The translations under genes were made by a program, and so were the position numbers. A DNA stretch of 64,000 nt from Micromonospora zamorensis (GTDB taxonomy: Bacteria; Actinomycetota; Actinomycetes; Mycobacteriales; Micromonosporaceae), in the NCBI RefSeq assembly GCF_900090275.1, contig NZ_LT607755.1, positions 6,076,001 to 6,140,000 of the forward strand. The letters run 5' to 3'. Shown one piece after another: positions 11,912 to 14,492 of the stretch. Within the stretch, counting starts at the first letter, position 1; each line of letters starts with the position of its first letter. The notes under the pieces were generated by a model that saw only the letters and a program-made list of their open reading frames with translations, ran no database searches and was not told where the DNA came from.

Positions 11912-12247
11912 ATGCGAGTCGAGTACGACGACGTTGAAATCGAGGACGACCTGCGGGTGACCCACCAGGGCGAACTCTTCACCGGCGAGGTGGTCGAACG
12001 CTCACCGCAGGGTCAGGTCATCGCCCTCACCACGTACTTCAAGGGCATGGAGGACGGCCCCTCCGCCGAGTGGTACCCGAGTGGCGAGCGCAAGGCGGAG
12101 GGCAGTGTGCGCTATGGCATAGCTGTCGGCGTCCACGAGGAGTGGCACCGCAACGGCAACCCCGCTGCCCGTGTCGAGTTCGACGACCAGGGCAAGCTGC
12201 TCAGCCGCCAGCGCTGGGCCGAGGACGGCACCCCGATCAAGAACTAG
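11912..12247 (+). CDS. YwqK/MORN-repeat antitoxin-like protein
   Basis: The start chosen is ATG 11912 (MRVEYDDVEI, GGAG 8 bp upstream); a longer frame to 11846 lacks a ribosome site. The 111 residues contain two or three MORN_2-type repeats of form W-Y-x-x-G and G-x-x-x-x-W-x-x-x-G (EWYPSGERKAEG, GVHEEWHRNGNPAA). Such YwqK-like proteins accompany LXG/WXG polymorphic toxins as putative antitoxins. It would be a second immunity-type gene behind one toxin. Its stop codon TAG lies in the CTAG that begins the 17-bp inverted repeat at 12244. Confidence 0.65.
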   Translation: MRVEYDDVEIEDDLRVTHQGELFTGEVVERSPQGQVIALTTYFKGMEDGPSAEWYPSGERKAEGSVRYGIAVGVHEEWHRNGNPAARVEFDDQGKLLSRQRWAEDGTPIKN

Positions 12248-12260
12248 TACTCCAACGTCA
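12244..12260 (+). repeat. left copy of perfect 17-bp inverted repeat (possible element end)
   Basis: CTAGTACTCCAACGTCA here is the exact reverse complement of 14476-14492. CTAG is itself palindromic, so the pair can be read as a 13-bp terminal inverted repeat flanked on both sides by a 4-bp CTAG direct duplication. That target form is known for some IS5-type elements (YTAR targets). The repeat overlaps the stop codon of the YwqK-like gene. Confidence 0.7.
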
Positions 12261-12286
12261 TCTGATCTGCCGACTGGCTTGCTCGG

Positions 12287-12397
12287 CTAGCTCATGAAGA
12301 AGATCATGGCCGCGAGGCTTGCCCCCATGGCCAGGTGCTCCCAACGGAGCAGGTCCGTGATCGGTCGATTGCGCAGCCGGACGAGTACGGTCGTCAT
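12287..12397 (-). CDS. 36-residue possible small membrane protein
   Basis: An ATG at 12397 opens a 36-codon frame ending in TAG: a basic N-terminus (MTTVLVRLRNRPITDLLRW) then one hydrophobic helix (HLAMGASLAAMIFFM). It follows the ORF at 12407 by 9 bp on the same strand and lies just inside the left inverted repeat. It could also be the shifted tail of the upstream membrane ORF. The ribosome site is weak, so support is limited. Confidence 0.35.
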   Translation of the reverse strand: MTTVLVRLRNRPITDLLRWEHLAMGASLAAMIFFMS

Positions 12398-12406
12398 CCA
12401 GCAGAA

Positions 12407-12697
12407 TTAAGCCGCCGTGGCGGCGCGAGCGCCATGAGCACGGCCCCCGGCCATACGGTGCCACTCCAGCTCCGGGCCGCGCTCGGTCGGACCGCCGACG
12501 ACGATTGCCACCGCCAAGGCCAGGAGCAGCAGCGTGCCCGCGTGCTGCACAACTGGTGCGGCGTCGAGGGTCACCGCGGCCACGACAGCCACTGTCGCAC
12601 CCGCAAGTATTCGGGCTCTGCGGGAAGCGCCCGCCCGCGGCACGACGCAGCAGCAGGCTGACACCGCGGCCGACCCGAGCATGATCATCGCGATCAT
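12407..12697 (-). CDS. small hypothetical membrane protein, possibly frameshifted
   Basis: The protein has 96 residues from ATG 12697. Three hydrophobic segments are visible (IAMIMLGSAAVSACCCVV, ILAGATVAVVAAVTL, TLLLLALAVAIVV). It lies 7 bp beyond the end of the DUF899 gene and is likely co-transcribed with it. After GPELEWHRMAGG a +1 shift would give the more hydrophobic sequence AVLMALAPP, so the C-terminus may be frameshifted, with the 12287 ORF as its remnant. No family is recognised. Confidence 0.5.
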   Translation of the reverse strand: MIAMIMLGSAAVSACCCVVPRAGASRRARILAGATVAVVAAVTLDAAPVVQHAGTLLLLALAVAIVVGGPTERGPELEWHRMAGGRAHGARAATAA

Positions 12698-12704
12698 CAG
12701 GACG

Positions 12705-13412
12705 TCATCGCGGTGCGACGCCGGGGCGTGACCATTGCGCGGTGGGGCGGCCGTTGAGACGCCACGGGTGCCCGGTGACCCGCGGCCAGCCTTCAGGCGA
12801 GTTTTCCCAGTTCTCCTGCCGGCCGTACACCGTGAGGTCCAGGGCGTGGTAGGTGGTCATCAATGCCTCCACGCCCCGCCCGGTGGTCCAGTAGGTCTCG
12901 TAGACCTTGTCGCCGTCGCGCAGGTAGCACGCGATGAACCCGAAGTCACGACCGTCGGCCAGAGCCGGGTCGGAGTCTTTCGCCGAATACCAGGGGAACC
13001 TGTAGCCCATGAACTCCGCGAACGGGGCACTTTCGTCGTAGGGACCCTCGCAGAACACGGCGTAGGTGACGTCCCGAGCGTGCAGGTAGTCCAGCATCTG
13101 CATGTGACAGGTCGAGAAGGTGCACCCCTCACACTGATGCTCGTGCGGTTTACCGTCGTGCCACATGTGGAAGTAGGCGATGAGCATCCGGCGGCCCTCG
13201 AACACCTCCACCAGCGGGGTGTCCCCGCCTGGGCCCCGCACCGTCACCGTCGGCATCAAGGTCATCGGCAGCTGACGACGAGCGGCTGCGATCGCGTCTC
13301 CTTCGCGGGTATGGGCCTTCTCCCGGACCAGCAGTTCGTCGCGCTCGCGCAGCCAGGTCTCCCGGTCGACGACCGGGGGCGCGGCGGCGCTGGACGCGGG
13401 GGTTGCCGTCAT
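12705..13412 (-). CDS. DUF899 thioredoxin-like family protein
   Basis: ATG at 13412 with an excellent GAAGGAGAT site gives 235 residues. Family marks are the N-terminal RETWLRERDELLVREKAHTR, the motif RRQLPM, and FHMWHDGKPHEHQCEGCTF with two Cys in a thioredoxin-fold position, followed by ARDVTYAVFCEGP and the GRDFGFIACYLRDGDKVYETYWTTGRG core. DUF899 proteins are cytoplasmic, of unknown function, with a thioredoxin-like fold. The gene is divergent from the ECF sigma gene at 13549, a pairing often seen for such sigma factors and a hint that the sigma controls it. Confidence 0.88.
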   Translation of the reverse strand: MTATPASSAAAPPVVDRETWLRERDELLVREKAHTREGDAIAAARRQLPMTLMPTVTVRGPGGDTPLVEVFEGRRMLIAYFHMWHDGKPHEHQCEGCTFSTCHMQMLDYLHARDVTYAVFCEGPYDESAPFAEFMGYRFPWYSAKDSDPALADGRDFGFIACYLRDGDKVYETYWTTGRGVEALMTTYHALDLTVYGRQENWENSPEGWPRVTGHPWRLNGRPTAQWSRPGVAPR

Positions 13413-13548
13413 GGCTATCTCCTTCGTGGAGTGGGGATCGGTCACAGATACAGACGACCGAGTCGGCGATCGTCATCGGTGACCGATGACGGATGGGTCC
13501 GCGGTCGTCAGTACGGTTGTGAGGACCAGTCAGCCCCGGGGAGATCAC

Positions 13549-14478
13549 ATGTCCGACTCGCCTGATGAGCAGGCGGTCTGGCTGCAGCGCGCCTTCGACG
13601 AGCACCGGCGTGAGCTACACGTCCACTGCTACCGCCTCGCCGGGAACGTCACCGACGCGGAGGACCTGGTGCAGGAGACCTTCCTGCGCGCCTGGCGGGC
13701 TCGCGACCGCTTCGAGGGTCGGGCGTCGGCGCGCACCTGGTTCTACCGGATCGCCACGAACGTCTTCCTCGACAGCCGCAAGGCGGCCGGTCACCGGACG
13801 GTACCGTACGGTGATCCGCTGGAGTGGTCCACCGAGCTCGGTCCCTATCCCGACGCCCTGCTGGCCGACGATCCGCAGACCGGTCTCGCCGCCCGGGAGA
13901 CCGTCGAGCTGGCCGTGATCGCAGCGCTCATGTACCTGCCGCCGCGGCAGCGGGCGGCCTTCGTGCTGCGCGACGTCTACGGCTGGACGCCGCAGGAGAT
14001 CGCCGCCGCGCTCGACACCGCCGTAGCGGCCGTCAACAGCCTCCTCCAGCGGGCCCGCCACACCCTCCGGCGGCGCGCTCCGTCGGACCCGAAGGACTGG
14101 CGCCGCCCGCAGCTCACCAGTGAGGACGAAGAGATCCTGCGCCGCTACGCCAACGCGAAGGACCCGGAGACTTTCCGGGCACTGCTCGCCGAGGACGTAC
14201 GGATCACGATGCCGCCCGAGCCGCCGGTCGTCGGGATCGACGCGGCCGCGGAGTTCCTCGGCCGACCGCTCGACTGGCGTACGTTCCCCACGTCGGCCAA
14301 CGGGCGCCCGGCACTGATCAACTATCTCCGCCGGCCCGGCAGCCCGCACTACGAGGCGTTGGTCGTCGACGTACTCCGGATCGAGAACGGGAAGATCGTA
14401 GAGAGCAACGCCTTCATCGGTGCCCGTCACGTCGCCGCCTTCAGCATGCCCGCCACGCTCAACGCCGAAGCCAAGTGA
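13549..14478 (+). CDS. large ECF sigma factor with SnoaL-like C-terminal domain
   Basis: ATG 13549 with GGGGAG upstream gives 309 residues. Region 2 is at about 10-80 (HCYRLAGNVTDAEDLVQETF, ASARTWFYRIATNVFLD) and region 4 at about 120-185 (LPPRQRAAFVLRDVYGWTPQEIA, VNSLLQRARHTL). An extra C-terminal domain of about 110 residues (TFRALLAEDVRITMPPEPPVVGIDAAAEFL...) has the NTF2/SnoaL-like look found in SigG/SigJ-type factors (ECF41/ECF56-like groups). Those regulate themselves through that domain and do not use an anti-sigma factor; none is adjacent here. The TGA stop is the first three bases of the right inverted repeat. Confidence 0.88.
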   Translation: MSDSPDEQAVWLQRAFDEHRRELHVHCYRLAGNVTDAEDLVQETFLRAWRARDRFEGRASARTWFYRIATNVFLDSRKAAGHRTVPYGDPLEWSTELGPYPDALLADDPQTGLAARETVELAVIAALMYLPPRQRAAFVLRDVYGWTPQEIAAALDTAVAAVNSLLQRARHTLRRRAPSDPKDWRRPQLTSEDEEILRRYANAKDPETFRALLAEDVRITMPPEPPVVGIDAAAEFLGRPLDWRTFPTSANGRPALINYLRRPGSPHYEALVVDVLRIENGKIVESNAFIGARHVAAFSMPATLNAEAK

Positions 14479-14492
14479 CGTTGGAGTACTAG
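14476..14492 (-). repeat. right copy of perfect 17-bp inverted repeat
   Basis: TGACGTTGGAGTACTAG is the exact reverse complement of 12244-12260. The first three bases are the sigma-factor stop codon and the last four are CTAG. No transposase gene lies between the two copies. Confidence 0.7.

Follow-up and report, generated by a model that had tools for sequence, protein, structure and literature searches.

We analyzed a 64-kb stretch of Micromonospora zamorensis DNA (the window), part of a single 7.10-Mb contig, in which a 2,249-bp block is spanned by an exact 17-bp inverted repeat (12244-12260 and 14476-14492). The block lies between a YwqK-like gene and a DUF6177 gene and carries genes for a DUF899 protein and for a sigma factor of the extracytoplasmic function (ECF) type, together with the remnant of a membrane-protein gene (Table 1). 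Judged by its sequence, it is derived from an insertion sequence (IS) of the IS701 family but is not a complete IS701, because it contains no transposase, whereas ISs with the same ends encode one and sister copies of the block keep fragments of it. We consider it likely that the block is what remains of an IS701-family element that carried a self-contained sigma/target pair as passenger and lost its transposase after it had arrived.

Terminal repeats and their IS701 identity

About 0.02 such repeat pairs would be expected by chance in the window. When up to three mismatches are allowed, the 17-mer has only two matches in the 64 kb, compared with a mean of 0.05 in shuffled sequences (two matches in none of 100 shuffles), and the 7,095,932-bp genome contains its 13-bp core just once on each strand, with none for the reversed control. 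An earlier note, made from the sequence of the window alone, had described this perfect repeat, had split it into CTAG and a 13-bp terminal repeat, had assigned the stop codon of the YwqK-like gene to the left CTAG and the TGA of the sigma gene to the right repeat, and had called the block transposase-free; on each of these points our results agree with it. The left TAG (12245-12247) is the stop of the open reading frame (ORF) at 11846-12247, and the sigma ORF stops at the right TGA (14476-14478). ORF inspection and scans with Pfam and NCBIfam profiles found no transposase inside the block.

A scan of one genome per species identified 25 stretches that contain the 17-mer, 20 of which show similarity to an IS or to the cassette beyond the 17-mer itself. 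Two facing exact 17-mers are present in eight of them: six whole elements of 1,410 or 1,436 bp, a DUF899-sigma cassette of 2,360 bp in genome G113 (locus L012), and locus L016. The ends of the window block are identical over 17 of 17 bp to those of whole IS701 copies, and the same ends bound 1.41-1.44-kb IS701 elements in Micromonospora and Dactylosporangium. The transposase of the whole elements is of the IS701 family (NF033540, E = 1.8e-125, 419 bits against a cut-off of 150; DDE_5), and four 100% identical copies of the IS in a single Dactylosporangium vinaceum genome suggest recent activity. These identical ends on intact IS701 elements bear out the mobile element with terminal repeats and 4-bp target duplication that had been proposed from the sequence. 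The link then made to the IS5 group falls away: of the four NCBIfam matches three are to models of IS701 and one, a weak one, is to IS4, and none is to IS5. Subterminal similarity to IS701 copies extends over 61 bp at the right end, and at the left end of the G113 copy ~34 bp (equivalent to about 12277 in the window) resemble the right ends of an IS701 subgroup. The 17-mer is absent from viral contigs. In two further loci (L016, 866-4690; L185, 798-4628) the IS701 transposase is interrupted by ~2.4 kb, and the insert in L016 holds a long ORF that resembles the reverse transcriptase of a group II intron.

Of 22 element pairs, 17 have the same 4 bp on both sides, and six of these are sequences other than CTAG (CTAA, GTAG, TTAA and three times TTAG); we therefore read CTAG as the duplicated target and the inner 13 bp as the terminal repeat proper. 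About 10 of the 22 pairs were found through a pattern that contains CTAG, and one (L184) may pair the ends of two copies. IS701 elements duplicate a 4-bp YTAR target, a rule that CTAG/CTAG in the window follows. The elements of the window and of G113 both lie at TAG stops, which prompted us to consider targeting of stop codons. This was rejected: ORF ends (ORFs of >=60 codons with a G+C content at third codon positions, GC3, of >=0.75) were found at 9 of 44 insertion sides and at 108 of 551 YTAR strand-sites (65 of 268 for CTAG) in 29 fetched loci (window, 12 of 88), with no clear enrichment beyond the target sequence.

Empty sites in relatives

The block is absent from this position in all six relatives in which both flanking regions are recognizable, so the syntenic loci without it that the earlier note had proposed to look for do exist. 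G017 and G132 have ~71-78 bp between the YwqK-like gene and the DUF6177 gene; in G011, G053, G054 and G134 the block is likewise missing between the flanking genes, and the YwqK-like gene is missing or rearranged. A seventh match, G003 (71%), has no right flank. The single CTAG that had been predicted at the empty site did not appear, the aligned insertion position reading CTAC in G017 (with a CTAG ~65 bp further on) and CCAC in G132; in both, the YwqK-like gene extends a few codons more. Without that CTAG and with the longer gene in these relatives, excision of the block would therefore not restore their gene end, and the TAG of the window either predates the insertion or represents a change in its lineage. 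For the G113 element, all nine relatives examined (the window's own genome among them), out of 57 other genomes that match its flank, end the gene in CACCTAG with no insert; the right flank of G113 was not found beside that gene end in any of the nine, and this is half an empty site only.

Distribution of the cargo

When 160 genomes of the genus were searched, many copies of the cargo were listed at 92-99% identity; of 354 genomes of the family, which span 44 genera, 48 genomes from eight genera match at E <= 1e-100. Our comparison set comprises 31 loci in 30 genomes, the window included, some of them near contig ends, where only short flanks could be compared. The DUF899-sigma cargo is 82-99% identical among these loci, and flanks are common only within G015a, G015b and G130 and within G243 and G252. 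One contig of G015 (C143; L103 and L104) bears two DUF899-sigma copies in opposite orientation that both share flanks with G130, either through duplication or as an effect of assembly.

IS701 transposase sequence that ends at IS position 1383-1385 and is oriented convergently with the cargo lies no more than 40 bp away from it at 11 of the 31 loci (G080, G098, G074, G018, G123, G053, G140, G107, G055, G146 and G331), and G054 has a shorter stub of the same transposase tail. The window, G113, G018, G123, G331, G074 (with one mismatch) and, in a special arrangement, G146 possess both terminal repeats; a single repeat was seen in G078 and G334 and, with one mismatch, in G132 and G040, and none at the remaining loci of the set. 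The block of G331, which belongs to another genus, is 98% identical to that of G113. The arrangement in G146 (M. tarensis; L027/L034, 2985-3014) consists of two terminal repeats that abut around one CTAG, with a hexapeptide acetyltransferase (recognized by eye) and a transposase on one side and transposase, sigma and DUF899 genes on the other; this may represent the junction of a circle, a tandem or a pair of neighboring elements.

We set the core of the cassette against gyrB in 18 of the 30 genomes. Of the 153 pairs, 141 are closer in the cassette core than in gyrB, and this holds for all 56 pairs that combine a genome of the window's genus with one from any of three other genera. The presence of the cargo at many unrelated sites in several genera supports the suggestion, made from the window alone, that such an element offers a route by which a sigma/target pair could spread. 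A plasmid search gave 51 records that match at 60-80% identity, none of which covers 80% of the query; among the 20 matches listed, 14 carry a DUF899 annotation and six do not.

Loss of the transposase

Taking the M. gifhornensis IS as the reference for coordinates, the transposase lacks positions ~352-549 in G331, 577-1208 in G074, 191-1172 in G123 and two segments in G018. G334 keeps only IS positions 2-113, and the whole gene is gone from the window, G113 and G040, each with a different junction. The sigma gene of the window runs through ...CATGCCCGCCACGCTC into AACGCCGAAGCCAAGTGACGTTGGAGTA, and AACGCCGAAGCCAAGTGACGTTGGAGTA is the left end of the IS in G331, G018 and G123. Because its 3' end is fused to this IS end, the sigma factor of the window terminates in NAEAK; most others terminate in LEP. 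Direct repeats flank the transposase in G331, G074, G018 and G123: the sigma gene carries CATGCCCGCCACGC, and the IS end carries CATGCCCGCGCCACGC. A second fusion of a sigma 3' end to the IS left end, ending in PDAGAE at another junction, was observed at ~8973-9104 of the reverse-complemented locus L140 (G040), where most of the sigma gene is missing.

Among the right junctions of 30 of the 31 loci (G044 gave none), no transposase-less junction is common to two different sites. Those of G015a and G015b are alike, but these two share their flanks, and the right junction of the window recurs at no other locus of the set. Since different sites do not share such a junction, the transposase was probably lost locally after landing, and arrival with a transposase followed by local loss is the simplest history.

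The main competitor is that the block is a true mobile insertion cassette (MIC), which jumped here without a transposase and was moved in trans by an IS701 transposase elsewhere, as the earlier note had it. Its two ends and both target duplications are intact around a transposase-free interior, related genomes do encode intact transposases of this group, and MICs in general are described, in the available text of PMC3129680, as activated by a cognate transposase. A match to a transposase of this group, for which the earlier note had suggested searching, is however lacking in the host genome, in a search that does match 10 of 12 genomes (G014 weakly, E = 5.8e-4), and the 31 loci share no transposase-less junction, although with one genome per species recent hops within a species would escape this comparison. 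The block is as free of a transposase as had been described, yet nothing positive speaks for movement in trans: neither a helper match in the host nor a shared junction was found, and related copies keep differently deleted transposase fragments. We regard this alternative as unlikely, if still worth weighing.

Cargo genes and candidate promoters

Table 1. Features of the block and its immediate neighbors (window coordinates)
Feature	Position	Strand	Basis or remark
Host YwqK-like (MORN-type) gene, outside the element	11846..12247	+	TAG stop within left target duplication; weak MORN_2 match, E = 1.1e-4, below cut-off
Left copy of target duplication, CTAG	12244..12247		Identical 4-bp flanks on other elements: CTAA, TTAG, TTAA, GTAG (six elements)
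Terminal inverted repeat on the left, 13 bp, corresponding to the right end of the putative parental IS701 element	12248..12260	+	Exact repeat, genome-unique core
Membrane-protein gene remnant of the cargo	12407..12697	-	Window block 2,249 bp, G113 block 2,360 bp
DUF899 protein, 235 aa	12705..13412	-	PF05988, E = 4.8e-52 (scanned as longer ORF 12705-13445)
Candidate sigma-dependent promoter of DUF899 gene, ACCGATGA-N16-CGTC	13453..13480	-	Conservation only
Candidate promoter of sigma gene, same motif on opposite strand	13482..13509	+	Conservation only
ECF sigma factor with fused C-terminal SnoaL_2 (SnoaL-like) domain, 309 aa	13549..14478	+	TIGR02960/SigX5; last residues NAEAK from IS end
Left end of the putative parental IS701 element, fused to sigma gene through transposase deletion	14461..14488		Includes right 13-bp repeat 14476-14488
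Right copy of target duplication, CTAG	14489..14492		Sequence
DUF6177 gene, flank beyond the insertion	14563..15861	-	Close to YwqK-like gene in empty relatives

The sigma factor scores 268.6 bits against TIGR02960 (SigX5), above the curated cut-off of 264.75. With its DUF899 and ECF sigma genes the cargo is, as had been remarked, unrelated to secretion, and the flanking DUF6177 gene and a 1,318-aa FtsK/SpoIIIE protein among the neighbors are consistent with a type VII locus. The window block is 111 bp shorter than that of G113, with a 15-bp overlap at the break in a small membrane ORF; the small membrane ORFs formerly counted as cargo are therefore there in part, as a broken remnant and not as a whole gene.

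Full or near-full length is kept at 28 of 30 loci by DUF899 and at 25 of 30 by sigma. The median ratio of nonsynonymous to synonymous substitution rates (dN/dS) is 0.23 for sigma (338 pairs), 0.23 for DUF899 (339 pairs) and 0.81 for the membrane gene (76 pairs), calculated on pairs with dS > 0.03, some of which (G015, G136, G147) rest on shifted or partial genes. By this measure the sigma and DUF899 genes are under purifying selection; the membrane gene is not under clear selection and is often truncated.

The -35-like halves of the two divergent candidate promoters together form the palindrome TCATCGGTnACCGATGA. Of the 31 loci, 27 have the motif ACCGATGA-N16/17-CGTC in both directions, G252 has it in one, and G147, G136 and G044, which hold partial modules, have it in neither. 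The motif occurs at seven sites in the genome, two of them the cassette's own pair, compared with one for the control. The CxxC motif of DUF899 (C94, C97) is invariant in 16 proteins, and a sequence search of the PDB with DUF899 returned no match. Its structural model (mean predicted local distance difference test, pLDDT, of 60) has a peroxiredoxin as best fold match (E = 2.7e-6, template modeling (TM) score 0.46) and resembles peroxiredoxins and ResA-type thioredoxins with a query-normalized TM of at most 0.46, at low-to-moderate confidence, which is suggestive of a thioredoxin/peroxiredoxin-like fold. A redox-stress circuit of the sigma factor and DUF899 is a reasonable guess, and the regulatory function is a prediction from the anatomy of the cassette.

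Origin and fate of the element

We propose that an IS701 element took up the DUF899/sigma/membrane module into the stretch that separates the stop of its transposase gene from its right end, and that this element would have inserted by means of its own transposase at a CTAG beside the type VII genes. Recombination between the near-identical direct repeats CATGCCCGCCACGC, at the sigma 3' end, and CATGCCCGCGCCACGC, in the IS left end, may then have deleted the transposase, a deletion that would have fused the sigma gene to the IS end and so supplied its TGA stop. The cargo may have been kept as a useful closed circuit, in which the sigma factor would activate divergent promoters for itself and for the thiol-redox-like DUF899 protein, and would be restrained by its own fused SnoaL-like domain and not by an anti-sigma factor. 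The movement part of this history is well supported. The sequences themselves show the ends, the target duplication, the many unrelated sites of the cargo (some marked by remnants of the IS701 transposase), the empty site, and selection on two cargo genes.

Several observations weigh against this history. The aligned YwqK-like site of the relatives lacks CTAG, five of the 22 element pairs have unequal 4-bp flanks, and the GTAG/GTAG flanks at G331 deviate from YTAR. About one third of the loci have neither an end nor a transposase, and their history is unreadable. None of the loci examined combines the sigma cargo and an intact transposase in one copy (the G146 contig stops inside the transposase), and for that reason the active parent is a putative one. 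In 12 of the 153 pairs gyrB is as similar as the cassette or more so, some of them involving the window's own genome; the exceptions printed are within-genus pairs with gyrB at about 95-98%. The sigma gene is broken or partial at five of 30 loci (G146, G074, G040, G147 and G136), so the cargo is not always kept, and the predicted -35 differs from the ECF41 consensus.

A chromosomal DUF899-sigma pair flanked by chance by two solo IS701 ends is very improbable: such pairs do occur without these ends in related genera (82%, with shared flanks in G243 and G252), but the 4 bp of the two target duplications are identical, the flanks occur in relatives that lack the block, and two-ended blocks elsewhere (G113, G018 and G331) are ~98% identical to one another. 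A chance or regulatory inverted repeat without mobile history can be dismissed, for although five of the 25 17-mer stretches (L004, L006, L015, L020 and L026) show no further similarity to IS or cassette, the other 20 do, whole IS copies have the same ends, and the expectation and shuffle figures given above speak against coincidence.

An IS701-derived remnant that lost its transposase in place remains the reading we prefer, and it implies that a cassette without a transposase does not have to be the product of movement in trans. Copies that retain the cargo but differ in their transposase deletions make up a natural series of how an IS can turn into ordinary host genes, and a compact sigma/target pair in a small IS, at many sites in several genera, offers a concrete route for the spread of a regulatory circuit. 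We see the odds as evenly balanced on the broader proposal that IS701 elements in Micromonosporaceae act as one-way vehicles that deliver a complete regulatory circuit (sigma factor, divergent promoter pair and redox-type target) between genera, the inserted circuit then becoming fixed by repeated independent transposase loss under selection for the cargo. To our knowledge, within a limited check of the literature, no earlier case of a sigma circuit as IS cargo is known.

Comparison with known systems

The block shares with IS701 insertion sequences (NF033540, DDE_5) identical 13-bp ends, a 4-bp duplication that mostly follows YTAR, and subterminal sequence at both ends; it differs from them in having 2.2 kb of cargo in place of a transposase. 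Other IS701 elements with passengers were also observed. The element at locus L181 (G019, ~752-2793), with TTAA on both sides, combines a transposase ORF of full length with a passenger gene for a GNAT-type acetyltransferase, and elements at L182 (G027, 708-2971, by Pfam) and L014 (by eye) carry hexapeptide acetyltransferase passengers, which we take to be Vat-like.

Transporter ISs, with passenger genes unrelated to transposition, and transposase-less MICs are both known kinds in the available text of PMC3129680. The putative parent resembles a transporter IS in that it would combine an IS701 transposase and a passenger module between the same ends, but its cargo is a sigma factor with a probable target, and in the window the transposase has been lost. 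At the sister loci transposase and passenger do occur together, with the transposase decayed wherever it is readable (in G146 the contig ends within it). With MICs the window block shares IS ends around a passenger and the lack of a transposase, whereas movement in trans is not favored for it and its ends are of IS701 and not IS231 type. MIC231 of Bacillus cereus is a mobile insertion cassette with IS231 ends.

The cargo itself invites comparison with the ECF41 sigma factors, which, as described in the available text of PMC3426412, have a fused regulatory extension and act on a single adjacent target through TGTCACA, a spacer of 16 +/- 1 bp and CGTC. Set against that part of the source, the window differs in its -35-like half, ACCGATGA instead of TGTCACA, in its probable target, DUF899 instead of a carboxymuconolactone decarboxylase, oxidoreductase or epimerase, and in its sigma factor, which scores as TIGR02960/SigX5. 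It agrees in the lack of any visible anti-sigma gene in the block, the C-terminal extension, the single adjacent target, the CGTC element and the spacer of ~16 bp.

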